From the NCBI GenBank assembly GCA_016927595.1, contig JAFGMI010000026.1, positions 1 through 64,000 on the forward strand: DNA of 64,000 bases, in the 5' to 3' direction. The stretch comes from Melioribacteraceae bacterium. Its GTDB lineage: Bacteria > Bacteroidota > Ignavibacteria > Ignavibacteriales > Melioribacteraceae. This document shows, piece after piece, positions 2,948 to 13,488 of this stretch. The position numbers and the translations under genes were made by a program. Within the stretch, counting starts at the first letter, position 1; each line of letters starts with the position of its first letter. A model generated the notes under the pieces. It was given only the letters and a program-made list of their open reading frames with translations, was not told the origin of the DNA and did no database searches.

Positions 2948-3083
2948 GATACAGATACTCCTTATTAATTAAATAAATTGATTAAAACGAATTGATCAGA
3001 GCTTTGAAAGATACTGAAAGGACAAAAAACACTTACAAAAGATACTGTCAATTACTGCTTTACTTGTAAGCCCTAAGGCTCGG

Positions 3084-3170
3084 CGGAGAGGGAGGGATTC
3101 GAACCCCCGGACAGCTTGCACCGTCAACGGTTTTCAAGACCGCCGCATTCAACCACTCTGCCACCTCTCC
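3084..3170 (-). tRNA. tRNA-Ser (anticodon TGA)
   Basis: The minus strand folds into a class II tRNA of 87 nt. The acceptor stem GGAGAGG/CCTCTCC is perfect. The anticodon loop CTTGAAA gives TGA. A long variable arm and the T-loop TTCGAAT are present, and the discriminator is G as expected for serine. CCA is not encoded. Confidence 0.97.
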
Positions 3171-5723: not shown

Positions 5724-7412
5724 TTAATAACCAGCGGCTTGTCCGTCTTTCCTGGATTCAGAGGCTCCGTAATAAATACCTCTTTTACCGTCCCGCATTA
5801 TTGCCTGGTAACCCCCGTAGACTCCCTTCATATATTCAATTTTATGACCCAACTTCCTTAATTCATCTATTATTTCGTATCTGATTCCTGATTCTGCATA
5901 AATATACCCGCCGTCTCTCATTATACTTCCTGTTGGTTGTGATGAACCGAAATGTCGGATTCTCGGTGCATCTCCAGCTTCCTGAAAATTCATCCCGAAA
6001 TCAATAATATTTATCAGAGCCTGCACATGTCCCTGGGGCTGCATAGCTCCACCCATTACGCCGAAACTCAGCCAGGGCTCTCCATCTTTTGTCACGAATC
6101 CGGGAATAATAGTATGAAATGGTCTCTTACCGGGTTCATATTGATTGAAGTGTCCTTCTTCAAATGTAAACAATTCTCCCCTGTTCTGAAGTGAAAATCC
6201 CAAACCATCAGGGACCATTCCAGATCCGAAACCCCAGTAGTTACTTTGTATAAGTGAAACCATATTGCCTGCGGAATCTGCAACCGTCAGATAAATTGTA
6301 TCCCCATGTTCAAGCTTACCGGCATCGAAGGTATCAGATGCTTTTAGTTCATCAATGAGTTCTCTTCTTTTGTCAGCGTATTTTTTCGAGATTAATTCAT
6401 TTACCGGGATGTTGTTGAAAGACGGATCGCCGTAAAATTTTGCACGGTCTTCGTAAACGATTTTCTTAGTCTCGATGAGTAAGTGAAGATATTCTGTGCT
6501 GCCGAATCCCATGTTTTTGATATCATATCCTTCGAGTATGTTCAGCATCTGAAGAACAGCTATACCCTGACCATTCGGCGGAAGTTCCCACACATCGTAT
6601 CCGCGGTAGTTTGTTGACTCTGGTTGCACCCACTCCGATTGGTGGCTGGCGAAATCCATTAATGATAAATAACCTCCATGTTCGCTCAAGAATCCGACAA
6701 TTTTTTCTGCAATGCTGTCATTATAAAAAGCCCTTCTCCCGCCTTCTGCAATAAGTCTGTACGAGTTTGCCAGATCGGGATTCGTGAATATTTCCCCCTT
6801 ATCCGGAGCATTACCTCCGGGCAGAAATGTTTTTTCGAAGCCGGGTTGTTCTTTCAGGTATTCAGCACTTTTCCAGCCGCCTGCAATAACTTCTGTAACC
6901 GGAAATCCTTTTTCCGCATAATAGATTGCCGGACTCATTAATTCAGCAAATTTCAAACGACCGAATTTATCATGTAGCTCGAACCACCCGTCAACACACC
7001 CTGGCACCGAGACGGGCAGCGGTCCATGCAATGGAATTTTATCCAGTCCTTTTGATTTTAAAATTTGGAGAGTAAGTGCTCGGGGAGATCGTCCGCTTGC
7101 ATTTAAACCGAATAATTTCTTCGAACTGGCATCCCAGACAATTGCAAATAAATCTCCGCCTATTCCGCAACTCATCGGTTCAACTAATCCCAGCATTGCA
7201 TTTGCCGCAATTGCAGCATCCACCGCCGTGCCTCCTTTTTTTAGAATGTCCAGTGCCACTTGAGTTGCAAGAGGATGACTGGTTGCAGCAATACCGTTTC
7301 GTGCGATGATTTCTGATCTAGTTGCAAATAATTTCCCGGCGGGTCTGTCTTGTGTAATTGTATCAATCATAGCTATAAGAATAAAAACAATTATGAATAA
7401 TTTGTTTAACAT
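5724..7412 (-). CDS. ggt: Gamma-glutamyltransferase (gamma-glutamyltranspeptidase)
   Basis: This Ntn-hydrolase transfers or hydrolyses the gamma-glutamyl group of glutathione and related peptides in the periplasm. The proenzyme cleaves itself before a Thr, here T372 in GDTIYLTVAD, and the small subunit continues with GFGSGMVPDGLGFSLQNRG. The large subunit has RNGIAATSHPLATQVALDIL and SCGIGGDLFAIV. Sequence detail is closer to the YwrD-type branch than to E. coli GGT. I chose the ATG at 7412, which gives a signal peptide and has GGAA upstream; an in-frame TTG at 7439 lacks a ribosome binding site. A structured RNA with a terminator ends about 55 bp upstream and may control it. Confidence 0.93.
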   Translation of the reverse strand: MLNKLFIIVFILIAMIDTITQDRPAGKLFATRSEIIARNGIAATSHPLATQVALDILKKGGTAVDAAIAANAMLGLVEPMSCGIGGDLFAIVWDASSKKLFGLNASGRSPRALTLQILKSKGLDKIPLHGPLPVSVPGCVDGWFELHDKFGRLKFAELMSPAIYYAEKGFPVTEVIAGGWKSAEYLKEQPGFEKTFLPGGNAPDKGEIFTNPDLANSYRLIAEGGRRAFYNDSIAEKIVGFLSEHGGYLSLMDFASHQSEWVQPESTNYRGYDVWELPPNGQGIAVLQMLNILEGYDIKNMGFGSTEYLHLLIETKKIVYEDRAKFYGDPSFNNIPVNELISKKYADKRRELIDELKASDTFDAGKLEHGDTIYLTVADSAGNMVSLIQSNYWGFGSGMVPDGLGFSLQNRGELFTFEEGHFNQYEPGKRPFHTIIPGFVTKDGEPWLSFGVMGGAMQPQGHVQALINIIDFGMNFQEAGDAPRIRHFGSSQPTGSIMRDGGYIYAESGIRYEIIDELRKLGHKIEYMKGVYGGYQAIMRDGKRGIYYGASESRKDGQAAGY

Positions 7413-7465
7413 ATTGTTCCAAATATTTTTTGATTGCAAGGGAAATTAAAAGAAAAGTAATAAAT

Positions 7466-7504
7466 AAAAAACCCCTCGTCCCAGTCTTGGTGAGATGAGG
7501 GGTT
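7466..7504 (-). terminator. Intrinsic terminator at the end of the structured RNA
   Basis: On the minus strand AACCCCTCATC (7504-7494) pairs with GACGAGGGGTT (7480-7470) with one mismatch and is followed by a T-run. It lies upstream of ggt, so it either ends an independent RNA or attenuates ggt. Confidence 0.8.
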
Positions 7505-7646
7505 GCTCAACTCCTCCCGTAATAATTACGGATTTGGTTACTGTGCGAGTGGTTATGCCGACCACTCAGATGATTCACCTCTCTCCATTAAATTGTTCGG
7601 TCTTCAGTGAAACCCTTCTCTTTGGATAAGCTTGGGTTCCTCATCC
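7466..7646 (-). ncRNA. Unidentified structured RNA or riboswitch leader upstream of ggt
   Basis: On the minus strand a stretch of about 180 nt is rich in perfect hairpins in an AT-rich gap: 7609-7615 with 7634-7640 (7 bp), 7547-7553 with 7561-7567 (7 bp, 7-nt loop), 7517-7531 (CCGTAAT/ATTACGG), and a terminator at 7470-7504. A promoter-like TTGACA lies upstream with 17-bp spacing to TACGTT. It could be a free small RNA or a leader that attenuates ggt, whose ATG is about 55 bp past the terminator. I tried known classes (SAM, cobalamin, TPP, 6S, SRP, RNase P, tmRNA) without a match. A few short elements (GAGGAACCCA, AGGTGAATC, CAGTAACC, CGTAA) recall the ydaO c-di-AMP motif, but spacing does not fit. 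Confidence 0.6.
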
Positions 7647-7652
7647 GACTGC

Positions 7653-7681
7653 AACGTAAGAAATGTGATTTGGAATGTCAA
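7653..7681 (-). promoter_or_regulatory. Sigma-70-like promoter for the structured RNA
   Basis: On the minus strand a perfect -35 box TTGACA (7681-7676) is followed after exactly 17 bp by TACGTT (7658-7653), a three-of-six match to the -10 box. The expected start is near 7646, just ahead of the hairpin-rich region. Confidence 0.5.
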
Positions 7682-7682
7682 A

Positions 7683-8239
7683 TTAATTTTATGATCATAA
7701 AATATTATAAGTGTATGACTACTTCTAAATGAAATGGAGTAACTTAAATAAGGTTAAAATTATGCCTGGTAGTCTGAGCAGTATATCGTAATCCGTTTTA
7801 AAAGTATCTGTCTGACAGAAATAATTTTTTTATATCCATGATTTATATCACACCAGAGAATATCTGAATTCTGGGCTTCTGATTTACAAGTCATATTTTG
7901 TAAAAATAAAAGGCGGTAATAATGTTCTAAATATTGCGTTAGATGATTTTAAGAAAAGCAGTATTTCTGAAATAATTGACACATTATATAAAAGAATTAT
8001 AAGATTAAGACTTATATATATTTAATTTATTGTAATATTTTTTAAATCAGGAACTTCGCCTTGAAGGGAAATGTTGCATGAAAGTATAAAGCCAATAAGT
8101 ACTTAGAATATAAATAGTATAAATGGTTGCTTGTTTTTGGAAAATTATTTTTTTAGCTTTTTTACAACACAAATCAATTAGTGAACTTAATCTGAAGAAT
8201 TGCAATTAAAATTAACCAATAGATATATGAGAATGTATA
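7683..8239. other. AT-rich intergenic region before mltF
   Basis: About 550 bp hold no convincing gene. A stop-free stretch of 66 codons on the plus strand (7825-8025) has protein-like content but no Met or RBS at its start, so it is most likely decayed coding sequence or chance. No terminator or known RNA is visible. Confidence 0.4.
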
Positions 8240-9673
8240 GTGTCAAAAATATTAAAACATATCATCCCCTGGTTAATTGCAGCAATATCTCTTCTGAATA
8301 TCTCGTCCTGTAATACCAGTCACGATAAAGAAGTAAATCCTGTAGATCTAGACTTTTCGTTAATTAAAGAGCGGGGCAAAATAATTGCTTTAACCGGTTA
8401 TAATGCATACAGTTACTTTATCTACAGGGGCAGACCAATGGGATTTGAATATGATCTCGTAAAGCGCTTTGCTGATCATCTGGGTGTAGAGCTTGAAATT
8501 AAGGTAGTAAGAAATATAGATTCAATGTTTGAAATGCTCAACAGCGGTAAGGGGGACATTATAGCTTTTAATCTTACTGTTACAAAAGATCGTTCCAAAT
8601 ATGTTACTTTTACTCATCATCATCATACTACCAGGCAGGTACTTGTACAAAGGAGACCTGAAAACTGGCGTCAAATTAAACAGCATCAAATAGAAAGAAA
8701 ATTAATAAGAAATCCGCTTGATCTTGAAGGCAAGACCATACATGTTCGGAACGGCTCTGCTTATTTGCAGCGGTTGCAGAATTTATCGGAAGAAATCGGC
8801 GGCGAAATTAATATTGTTGAAGCCGATCCGGATGTTTCGATTGAAGACTTGATTAAAATGGTTGCGGACGGTGAAATAGATTATACTATCAGTGACGATA
8901 ATATTGCAAGGTTAAATCAGGCTCATTACACTAATATCGATATAGCTACACATATATCATTTCCGCAGCGCATCGCCTGGGCTGTGCGACAGAATGCCGT
9001 TGAGTTGCTTGATAGTATAAACACATGGATTGATTCAATGCGTAAAACTTCAGATTACTATGTTATTTACAACAAGTATTACAGAAATAAAGATGCATAT
9101 GCCAGGAGAGTTAGAAGCGACTATTTCTCGAATACAACGGGTAAGATATCGGAATATGACGATATTATAAAATCATATGCTGAGCAAGTAAAATGGGACT
9201 GGCGCATTATTGCATCAATGATTTACCAGGAATCGCAATTTAAGAATACTGCCAAATCCTGGGCGGGAGCTAAAGGTTTAATGCAATTAATGCCTGAGAC
9301 CGCTTCTATATTTGGAGTTGAGGATTTATCCGATCCCAGAGAGAGTTTAAGAGCTGGAGTAGCATACATCGGGTATCTCGATAAATACTGGTCTGCAATG
9401 GTAACCGATTCTCTGGAAAGAATCAAATTCATTTTAGCATCGTACAACATTGGTCCCGGTCATATACTCGATGCCAGAAATCTTGCTGAGAAATACGGTG
9501 CTGATCCTAATCTGTGGTTCGGAAATGTTGAAAAATTTCTGCTGAACAAGTCCAAAGAAAGATACTTTAACGATGAAATTGTAAAATTAGGTTATGCCAG
9601 GGGGACAGAAACGGTCAAATATGTCAGAGAAGTTTTAAGAAGATACGAACATTACAAAAAATTTATTAGCTGA
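8240..9673 (+). CDS. mltF: Lytic murein transglycosylase, MltF-like lipoprotein
   Basis: This 477-residue envelope enzyme cleaves the MurNAc-GlcNAc bond of peptidoglycan. A signal peptide ends in a lipobox (NISSC, Cys24), so it is a lipoprotein. Residues about 40-275 form a solute-binding (SBP_bac_3) domain with GYNAYSYFIYRGRPMGFEYD. Residues about 310-470 are the SLT domain with the catalytic Glu in YQESQF (E331), then AKGLMQLMPETA and ASYNIGPGHI. The architecture and length match MltF. The start is a GTG at 8240; an ATG at 8227 is in another frame. A polyhistidine patch (THHHHTT) inside the binding domain is curious but probably incidental. Confidence 0.93.
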   Translation: MSKILKHIIPWLIAAISLLNISSCNTSHDKEVNPVDLDFSLIKERGKIIALTGYNAYSYFIYRGRPMGFEYDLVKRFADHLGVELEIKVVRNIDSMFEMLNSGKGDIIAFNLTVTKDRSKYVTFTHHHHTTRQVLVQRRPENWRQIKQHQIERKLIRNPLDLEGKTIHVRNGSAYLQRLQNLSEEIGGEINIVEADPDVSIEDLIKMVADGEIDYTISDDNIARLNQAHYTNIDIATHISFPQRIAWAVRQNAVELLDSINTWIDSMRKTSDYYVIYNKYYRNKDAYARRVRSDYFSNTTGKISEYDDIIKSYAEQVKWDWRIIASMIYQESQFKNTAKSWAGAKGLMQLMPETASIFGVEDLSDPRESLRAGVAYIGYLDKYWSAMVTDSLERIKFILASYNIGPGHILDARNLAEKYGADPNLWFGNVEKFLLNKSKERYFNDEIVKLGYARGTETVKYVREVLRRYEHYKKFIS

Positions 9674-11193: not shown

Positions 11194-13119
11194 TCAGAAG
11201 GTGATCTCCAGTCCTCCGTAAAAAGCTCTGCCAAGAGTTCCGTAATAGAGAATTTCTTCGTACCGGCTGTCGAATATATTTTCAACACGGCCTCGTATTT
11301 TCAGATAATCGAAAAGAGTATAGGATGCAGCAAGATCCGTGATACTATAGGAAGCCAGTTTAACTCTTTCCGAAGGATATGCACTGAAATCATTATCTTC
11401 ACGCTCTCCTATATATCTGAAATTCAAGTTTACAGTCAGATCACTTGCAGGGTTAAAATTAATATTTACAACTGCCTTGTGAGCTGGTCTGCGAATCAAC
11501 CTTTCCATAGATTTAGGAACGCCTATAGATTTATCTTTAGCATCTATATAGCTGTAATTGAGTGCAATAGAAAGATTTGATTTATTATCGTATTTTATGC
11601 CTGTTTCAATTCCTCTGGTCTCTGCCTTATCGATGTTAACTGCGGAATAATTTGCATCGAATCCGATAAGATCATCAAACTTTGTACTGAAGTAAGTTAA
11701 TCCGAATGAGATGTTTTCCGAAAACAGGTACTGATCAATACCCAGATCCCATCCCTCGCTTTCTTCCGGTTTAAGGAGAGGATTACCAAAAGCAGGATCG
11801 AACAGGTAAAAAAGAGACGGAGCTTTGAAGCCCGTTCCGTAAGTGAATTTTAATTTGGTATTTGTCGAGGATAAATATAACGCAGGAGCTAATTTAAAAG
11901 TAGTTTTCCCGCCGAACCTTTCGTTATTATCGTGCCTGATTCCGAGCGTAACAAAGAGTGCGTTATTAATGTTTATCTGATCCTGCAGATATATACTGTT
12001 TGTTCGCATGCTTTCCTGCGGGAATATACTTTGAAAAGGACCCCAGGAGCTTTCAGAATTGTAAGAGGTATTTGCAGTTTCATTTTCCGACTCAAGTCCG
12101 ATTATAATTCTGTTAGACTCAAAGACTGTTAATTCGTTCTGCCAATTAAATTTTAACCTTGTTGCATTGCTGAAGTTGGACGAAGAAATACCCTGATGGA
12201 ATTGATCAGGCTCGTCAATTGCGTCCGATATTCTTCTCATCAGACCTGCTGAAAACTGCTGTTTCCATTTTCTGTCCAGTAAATAAATATTACCGGTAAG
12301 TCCCATGACATGCTGTTCAACATCGTAGTTGTAGTTGGGATCATCTCCGTCTGGGGAAGACTGATCGATTTCGGTTTCGGTTGTTGTGAATCTGTAAACA
12401 AAATTAAAGCTTACATAATCTGAGAGCAGATAGCCAAGTTTTGCAGAAGCCGATATATTGGTGTATCCATCTTTTTCATTCGCACCGTATCTGGTTGATA
12501 TTGATGAGATACCGTCTGTTCTAAGTTCCGATAAACTTAATGAGTATTTCAGCTTACCTGTTCTTCCGGAAGAATTAATCTCACCGTTCAAGTAATTATT
12601 CGAACCGATTTCGCTTTTAACATAAAGTGCAGGCGACTCCGTTCCCTCCCTTGTAATTATATTTATTATTCCGGCGACTGCATCTGATCCATAAAGAGTG
12701 CTCTGAGGTCCTCTTACAATTTCTATCCTCTCAATATTATCTACGGGCAGCATTGAAAGATCGTACGCATTGTTTGTTGAACTTGGATCATTCATTTCGA
12801 TCCCGTCGATAAGTACGAGCGTGTGATTCGAATTTGCTCCTCTTATAAAGACCGAAGCGAGTCGACCCGGACCGCCCTGTTGCGTAATCGAAATACCCTC
12901 AATGTCGCGCAGTGCTTCAAGAACAGTGGATTTCTGCAATTTTCTTAAATGTTCTCCGGTGATCACCGAGTAAGAACTAGCAATTTCCACGGCGCTTGTT
13001 GGTGTTTTATTCGCGCTTACAATTACTTCGGATAGTTTCGATTTAATACCGTTTTCCTGTGCCATGACAAAAGTTGCAGAGACAATTATCAGGCAAAAAA
13101 GTGATTTTAATGTTTTCAT
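11194..13119 (-). CDS. btuB: TonB-dependent cobalamin receptor, BtuB-like
   Basis: This 641-residue outer-membrane receptor should import cobalamin or a related corrinoid using TonB energy. A signal peptide ends at VMAQ. The plug domain (about 30-150) shows LSEVIVSANKTP (TonB-box region), VLEALRDIEGISITQQGG and IERIEIVRGPQSTLYGSDA. The remainder is a 22-strand beta-barrel ending in an aromatic (GGLEITF). The cobalamin riboswitch in its leader supports the substrate strongly. The ATG has AGGAG 8 bp upstream. No btuCDF genes are adjacent. Confidence 0.93.
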   Translation of the reverse strand: MKTLKSLFCLIIVSATFVMAQENGIKSKLSEVIVSANKTPTSAVEIASSYSVITGEHLRKLQKSTVLEALRDIEGISITQQGGPGRLASVFIRGANSNHTLVLIDGIEMNDPSSTNNAYDLSMLPVDNIERIEIVRGPQSTLYGSDAVAGIINIITREGTESPALYVKSEIGSNNYLNGEINSSGRTGKLKYSLSLSELRTDGISSISTRYGANEKDGYTNISASAKLGYLLSDYVSFNFVYRFTTTETEIDQSSPDGDDPNYNYDVEQHVMGLTGNIYLLDRKWKQQFSAGLMRRISDAIDEPDQFHQGISSSNFSNATRLKFNWQNELTVFESNRIIIGLESENETANTSYNSESSWGPFQSIFPQESMRTNSIYLQDQININNALFVTLGIRHDNNERFGGKTTFKLAPALYLSSTNTKLKFTYGTGFKAPSLFYLFDPAFGNPLLKPEESEGWDLGIDQYLFSENISFGLTYFSTKFDDLIGFDANYSAVNIDKAETRGIETGIKYDNKSNLSIALNYSYIDAKDKSIGVPKSMERLIRRPAHKAVVNINFNPASDLTVNLNFRYIGEREDNDFSAYPSERVKLASYSITDLAASYTLFDYLKIRGRVENIFDSRYEEILYYGTLGRAFYGGLEITF

Positions 13120-13239
13120 AGAAGTTACTCCTTTTAAGATGTAACTTCGAGGGGTGTTTGGAAATCTGAATTGATTTGAACCTAATTCAAATATTCGTTA
13201 ATCCAACCTATCCCGCGAAGGTTGATTAATTAAAGGTAA

Positions 13240-13395
13240 TTTTACGGCAGGTCTCCTGGCTTCGAACTCCTTCTAACGCCTTCCCGCCCTTAAGTAGATG
13301 GGCAGTGGCAGAATGTTAGAGGATGTTGTTCTTCACAGTTGCGGGGCAGCACCGGATTTTAACCGGTTTCCCTTTTCATCATAAGAACCGTAAAA
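13240..13395 (-). promoter_or_regulatory. Cobalamin (AdoCbl) riboswitch
   Basis: The minus strand carries the family signatures in order: GGGAAACCGGT, AAATCCGGTGCTGCCCCGCAA, CTGT, GCCACTG, GGGAAGGCG and GAAGCCAGGAGACCTGCC. The closing stem P1 is TTTTACGG (13395-13388) with CCGTAAAA (13247-13240). It sits in the leader of the BtuB-like receptor about 120 bp before its start codon. No U-run terminator follows, so control is probably on translation, with B12 lowering expression. A weak stem near 13199-13230 may be part of the switch. Confidence 0.97.
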
Positions 13396-13488
13396 CATTT
13401 GAAAGAACTCATCTCAAAATATTTATAAATAAGAGCTGATGCAATAAAAATAATTGTTGTTTTTTCATTTGTAAATTAATTAGGATTG

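Follow-up and report, generated by a model that had tools for sequence, protein, structure and literature searches.

A minus-strand stretch of about 181 nucleotides (positions 7466-7646) in the genome of a Melioribacteraceae bacterium is most probably a stand-alone small RNA gene of this family, predicted to act in trans and not to control ggt, the gene next to it. The window, meaning the whole stretch of DNA that was analysed, comprises 64,000 nucleotides, and positions given without a locus name refer to it. The limits of the RNA are based on the promoter spacing, the covariance model matches and the terminator, with the start inferred at 7646. Since the promoter and the terminator are conserved, the RNA occurs as a single copy and its neighbours change, we argue for a trans-acting RNA; its transcription, its action in trans, the binding of a protein and the regulation of targets are all predictions from sequence. 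As judged by comparative analysis, it is a new, lineage-specific and patchily distributed sRNA family, sRNA genes as a kind being already known. A structurally supported RNA family is in this way added to the Ignavibacteria/Melioribacteraceae, with an alignment, a promoter and a model ready for tests. The literature searches made, which covered few subscription journals, found no sRNA work on Ignavibacteria or Melioribacteraceae.

Homologues, promoter and terminator

A DNA search of 97 genomes gave a match in 10, the bacterium's own genome included. The covariance model R1 was built from those 10 sequences, all of which are among its later matches, and across 57 genomes of the family Melioribacteraceae it matched 16 (12 of 38 in a first set and 4 of 19 in a second), with one copy each and scores of 51-101 bits. 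The remaining R1 matches in family genomes did not exceed 30.5 bits. Scanning named genomes with a pattern yielded 17 matches, 11 of them confirmed by R1; one of these (L050) lies outside the 16 and brings the collection to 17 homologues in all. Six of the 17 pattern matches (L044 and L052-L056), as well as L144 on a viral contig, had no R1 match and were taken as chance, and the weak R1 matches L016 (30.5 bits), L079, L080, L024, L031, L032 and L025 were judged to be chance on inspection. R1 also gave matches of 17-20 bits, and matches below 20 bits elsewhere in the window.

With 105 or 108 candidates scored per genome, no real match was found in 41 of the 57 family genomes, and absence occurs also within genera that carry the RNA (G006, G019, G042). 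This patchiness may mean that the RNA was often lost, that it diverged beyond the reach of R1 or that the search missed it. Of 35 genomes screened for the MltF-like neighbour gene, 13 negative ones were also searched beside it, where nothing scored above 19.2 bits. In 20 genomes from outside the family but within the same order, the highest R1 score was 22.6 bits. Nothing convincing was found outside the family in a scan of 395 genomes of the phylum with strict filters and 10 candidates per genome, a scan of low power that is not evidence of absence.

The unit lies between ggt (5724-7439, minus strand, identified by PF01019), which is downstream of it on the same strand, and a MltF-like gene with SBP_bac_3 and SLT domains (8240-9673, plus strand). 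From 7681 down to 7466 on the minus strand it comprises TTGACA, 17 bp, TACGTT, several hairpins and a T-tailed terminator. The −35 element TTGACA (7676-7681) is preceded by a conserved A/T-rich AAAATTAAT. With the register set by the first base of the covariance model, TTG was found at −35/−36 of the inferred start in 17/17 homologues, and the TA of the −10 box, conserved in 16 of the 17, at −12/−11 or −13/−12. This −10/−7 element, TACGTT (7653-7658), is of the Bacteroidota type TAnnTT, and the spacer between the two boxes is mostly variable. The consensus of Bacteroidota sigma-ABfr promoters is given as −33 TTTG and −7 TAnnTTTG (PMC7366714). Since the boxes fit this consensus, we placed the start at the purine that precedes GATGAGG in the homologues, which is 7646 in the window. 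A generic scan for sigma-70 promoters and terminators flagged neither the promoter nor the terminator of the RNA, because the criteria of the scan do not cover a Bacteroidota-type −10 box or a terminator loop of this length; it flagged only the inverted repeat of hairpin P4, read on the plus strand.

The intrinsic terminator, AACCCCTC...GAGGGGTT followed by a T-run (7466-7504, minus strand), was present by eye in 15/15 readable homologues, a count that leaves out L064 (masked) and L069 (contig end). An antiterminator formed by the 5' end and the terminator was considered and rejected: GATGAGG/CCTCATC is perfect in the window and is lost, by eye, in L068, L072 and L073, whose 5' ends have changed. 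The conservation of promoter, start and terminator in relatives bears out the sequence-only reading on one point, namely a structured minus-strand RNA of about 180 nucleotides with its own promoter and terminator. A pairing that the same reading had proposed, between CGTAA and an upstream TTACG, fell away, as TTACG lies within the −10 element and upstream of the inferred RNA start.

Conserved structure of the RNA

All features of the RNA are on the minus strand. The 5' domain (7569-7645) is closed by helix P1, GAUGA/UCAUC (7645-7641 with 7573-7569), in which 98.8% of cells were paired and 2 of 5 pairs changed on both sides. P1 is followed by a 3x3 purine loop, GGA/GAA (7640-7638 and 7576-7574), and then by P1a (7637-7634 with 7580-7577; 89.7% of cells paired, 3 of 4 pairs changed on both sides), a helix first proposed by RNAalifold from 10 of the 17 sequences. 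P2 is a variable helix (7581-7630), here formed by 7630-7623 with 7587-7581 and one bulged A, that encloses the apical part. There, a hairpin GGUUU/AAACC, whose 3' strand reads AGACC in the window, and a flanking GAACAA strand (7592-7618) are among the most conserved columns of the 17 homologues, GAACAA being near-invariant. None of the five pairs of the apical hairpin changed on both sides among the 17 homologues, meaning that it is without covariation support. Downstream of the 5' domain, the P3 hairpin GAGUGGU/ACCACUC (7547-7567) had 95.7% of cells paired and 4 of 7 pairs changed on both sides. The P4 hairpin, CCGUAAUUAUUACGG (7516-7532), varies in sequence and was present by eye in 17/17 homologues; the automatic stem finder chose a different stem at this place in L065, L070 and L071. 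Between P4 and the terminator lies a purine-rich linker (7505-7515) with AGGAG in 8/17 homologues, GGAGG in two more and neither word in the remaining seven.

The named helices (P1, P1a, the apical hairpin and P3) were scored for covariation on an alignment of the 17 homologues made from their letters only. Paired cells amounted to 94.9% of 354 (compare with 86.9% in shuffles), 9 of 21 pairs changed on both sides (4.5 in shuffles), and the covariation score was 0.309 (0.158 in shuffles, and at most 0.135 when the partner was slid); these shuffles ignore the relatedness of the sequences. There was no excess of further pair types among the 17 homologues (19, compare with 18.5 in shuffles). For P2, the energy of the own halves of the 17 sequences was −65.4 kcal/mol, compared with a mean of −32.4 kcal/mol for swapped halves, and 1 of 20000 permutations was as good; on a reduced set of 12 sequences, from which five close relatives had been dropped, 106 of 20000 were. 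P2 is weak in four of the 17 (L069, L045, L070 and L071). Compensatory changes in the alignment, a check that the sequence-only reading had itself proposed, support pairing in P1, P1a and P3; for P2 the support is less even and comes from the test with swapped halves.

Folded alone, nucleotides 1-181 of the RNA gave an energy z of −2.58, and none of 200 shuffles was as stable. With flanks (7460-7665) the z was −2.13 and 7 of 200 shuffles were equal or better, so that taken by itself the fold energy is moderate evidence only. The earlier description of hairpins with perfect stems of at least 7 bp was confirmed as to the presence of hairpins, and not as to the first of them. That hairpin, GGATGAG/CTTATCC (nucleotides 1-7 with 17-23), forms when the minimum-energy fold is computed from the window sequence by itself, and reaches 7 bp in only 3/17 homologues; the conserved partner of nucleotides 2-6 is UCAUC at nucleotides 74-78, in helix P1.

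Neighbouring genes and alternative readings

We compared up to five upstream and six downstream ORFs for each homologue. Downstream ORFs were readable in 14 of the 17, the window counted; L061, L069 and L070 end 427, 68 and 278 bases past P3 and have no readable downstream ORF. No neighbour listed for the other 16 RNAs (a downstream ORF is readable for 13 of them) is a homologue of the ggt protein. In a congener (L060 in genome G001) the next listed ORF is an FtsX-like permease, without ggt, and in the window this permease follows ggt. It is one of two families found downstream in two homologues (window and L060, same genus); the other, shared by the window and L072, is a farther ORF on the opposite strand, and its cluster includes an upstream ORF of L071 as well. 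Three further ORF clusters combine upstream and downstream members, and no gene family was found downstream in more than two homologues (14 readable of 17). Among the genes closest downstream are ggt in the window, a RecD2-like helicase in L045, a CheB-like response regulator in L073 and genes on the opposite strand. Functionally related downstream genes, as would mark a riboswitch, were not found; the downstream genes differ, and in several homologues they are on the opposite strand. A tRNA-Ser(TGA), at 3082-3170 (minus strand) in the window, follows the RNA on the same strand in 7/17 homologues (the window and six others). The distance is 300 nt or less in five of these and about 2.8 and 4.4 kb in the remaining two, and the place upstream of this tRNA may be the ancestral location of the RNA. 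On the upstream side, the MltF-like gene recurs in four homologues, a gene that we take to be ispG-like in four and a DUF1028 gene in three. The last of these precedes the RNA in L062, L065 and L045 (PF06267 was tested for L065), and the downstream sides of these three loci differ.

The unrelated downstream genes, and the permease without ggt in L060, lead us to conclude that the RNA is not a ggt leader. A riboswitch or attenuator acting on gamma-glutamyltransferase, possibly of a diverged ydaO type, had been offered by the sequence-only reading beside a new small RNA, and what can be said for it is that ggt follows the RNA on the same strand in the window and that the RNA has the words GAGGAAC and GGTGAATC in common with ydaO. 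Against this stand the lack of a ggt homologue among the neighbours listed for the other homologues, the finding by eye that no alternative pairing of the terminator to the 5' end is conserved, and the absence of ydaO from the Rfam matches (E<=10 at the locus, E<=5 in 10 further loci), and we regard it as extremely improbable. Reading a riboswitch from the neighbouring ggt would mislead, given that the same RNA precedes unrelated genes. The other half of the earlier proposal, a new small RNA, fits the conserved promoter and start, the compensatory structure, the terminator and the changing neighbours.

Three other readings find something in their favour in the genome or in the 5' end. A CsrB-like sponge for CsrA would suit the presence of csrA, the GGA words of the RNA and the AGGAG found in some of the linkers, and yet GGA counts stay close to expectation: the 15 homologues tested have 3-6 each, and their shuffles gave 3.0-6.7 (of the 17, L064 and L069 were omitted as their 3' ends are missing, and some others were cut at the T-run before the terminator end). 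The largest surplus was in L073 (6 against 3.9), while the window had 6 against 6.7, and one ANGGA against 1.9. Genomes with and without the RNA have csrA at much the same rate (13/16 with it, 31/41 without; Fisher p 0.74), and fliW (PF02623), which encodes the CsrA antagonist FliW, directly precedes csrA in the window's genome. The sponge is very improbable. The fliW-csrA pair is at L101 1106-1761, and csrA was found in 44/57 family genomes. Hardly any likelihood attaches to a short leaderless message starting with ATGAGGAAC... at the 5' end: a start codon is indeed present at nucleotides 3-5 in 17/17 homologues (ATG in 16, GTG in one), with an 18-codon frame in 5/17, but the frame ends after 3-33 codons, the peptides diverge past their first residues and P1 pairing is kept through changes on both sides. 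That the RNA is the diverged 6S RNA of the lineage is scarcely credible. It is of similar length and has its own promoter, and Rfam 6S exceeded its cut-off in 0/38 family genomes and had no match in the bacterium's own genome; against that, a second sequence of the lineage folds as a 6S-like rod (z −6.4) and scores 29.1 bits in G008, and in G004, one of the carriers of the RNA, 6S matches a different place with 38.9 bits. All these 6S-like matches fall below the Rfam 6S cut-off of 46.4 bits. The rod had DNA matches in 38/55 genomes, the bacterium's own included (G000:C23:8066-8249, L091), and none in G027 and G028, which carry the RNA. L091 and 5 of 6 other loci tested had no 6S match at E<=1, so that it is by similarity to the G008 sequence that the own copy is called 6S. 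The 6S-like loci of Ignavibacteriales noted were L091, L057 1501-1707 and L097 1471-1676.

We then consider how a stand-alone RNA might work. RNA polymerase would start at purine 7646 from the Bacteroidota-type promoter and transcription would stop at the terminator near 7466, giving an RNA of about 180 nt that would act in trans and not on ggt. The compact 5' domain (P1, the GGA/GAA loop, P1a, the variable P2 and the apical hairpin with GAACAA) would offer a protein a place to dock, and P3, P4 and the terminator, on the 3' side, would add stability. The most conserved letters among the 17 homologues are in the loops and purine strands of this domain, and therefore suit a putative binding site. 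Given a stand-alone sRNA, protein docking is the mechanism we prefer, with a little less than even confidence, because it is the folded 5' domain that holds most of the conservation, and not an open 5' seed of the GibS kind. A close rival, tentative in turn, is an Hfq-independent, GibS-like sRNA whose GAACAA strand or AGGAG linker would pair with the translation starts of a few mRNAs. An intergenic RNA with its own promoter, an intrinsic end and a near-invariant purine-rich strand would fit such a role, and so would the lack of an Hfq match (PF17209) in the 99.79% complete genome, the control search having matched in 5/14 genomes. In the GibS report, Bacteroides is described as lacking obvious homologues of Hfq and ProQ, and GibS as pairing with two mRNAs (PMC7366714). 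What speaks against pairing is that the 5' seed of GibS is given there as conserved and unpaired, while P1 takes up the 5' end of this RNA, and that AGGAG is present in only 8/17 homologues. It is unlikely, although conceivable, that the RNA is a new abundant housekeeping RNA of the lineage, whose rigid 5' domain, with its stacked GGA/GAA purine loop and near-invariant apical hairpin, would bind one global protein or small signal molecule in trans; if so, it would be comparable in rank to 6S or SRP RNA, with a fold not yet described.

Comparison with known RNA classes

At gathering scores, Rfam 15 had no match at the RNA locus and only two in the window, a cobalamin riboswitch (13229-13407) and the tRNA, matched at 3084-3170. 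At E<=10, seven matches were found in 7380-7760, all far below their cut-offs; these weak overlaps (PyrR, 23S-methyl, anti-hemB and others) were mostly on the 3' hairpins of the RNA. Ten further homologue loci gave no convincing Rfam family either. The view that known riboswitch classes do not fit held up in this Rfam run, which the sequence-only reading had suggested. The cobalamin riboswitch (minus strand, 114 bits) is an ordinary one before the gene 11194-13119, presumably one resembling a TonB-dependent receptor. The single match of the genome to bacterial SRP RNA (RF00169) is elsewhere, at G000:C29:137564-137661.

The ydaO/yuaA c-di-AMP riboswitch has the words GAGGAAC and GGUGAAUC. These ydaO-like words had been noticed before and are indeed present, though within a different structure, made of P1, the GGA/GAA loop and ACY/RGU: GAGGAAC and GGUGAAUC form the two strands of the GGA/GAA loop beside ACY/RGU. 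A GGA/GAA internal loop next to ACY/RGU is a recurrent RNA element, and the likeness in words is due to it and not to membership of the class. No covariance match to RF00379 was found at E<=10 at the locus, nor at E<=5 in the 10 further loci, and this RNA differs from ydaO in having no Rfam match, no fixed downstream gene and one such element only. With 6S RNA (RF00013) it has length and an own promoter in common; it is not a rod with a central bubble, the same genome has a separate 6S-like sequence, and RF00013 had no match in that genome, nor among the E<=10 matches at the locus. Chlorobi-1 and other motifs of the 2010 survey are likewise candidate structured RNAs from a related phylum, and Chlorobi-1 is given in that work as RF01696 (PMC2864571); in contrast, no Rfam family convincingly matches this RNA.

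The nearest likeness in kind is to GibS and other intergenic sRNAs of Bacteroides, which are intergenic, end at an intrinsic terminator and belong to the Bacteroidota in the wide sense (PMC7366714). GibS is 145 nt long and this RNA about 180 nt, and neither host has an obvious Hfq. Compared by description and not by sequence, the 5' seed of GibS is unpaired and its promoter non-canonical according to the same account, whereas the 5' end of this RNA is held in a conserved helix.
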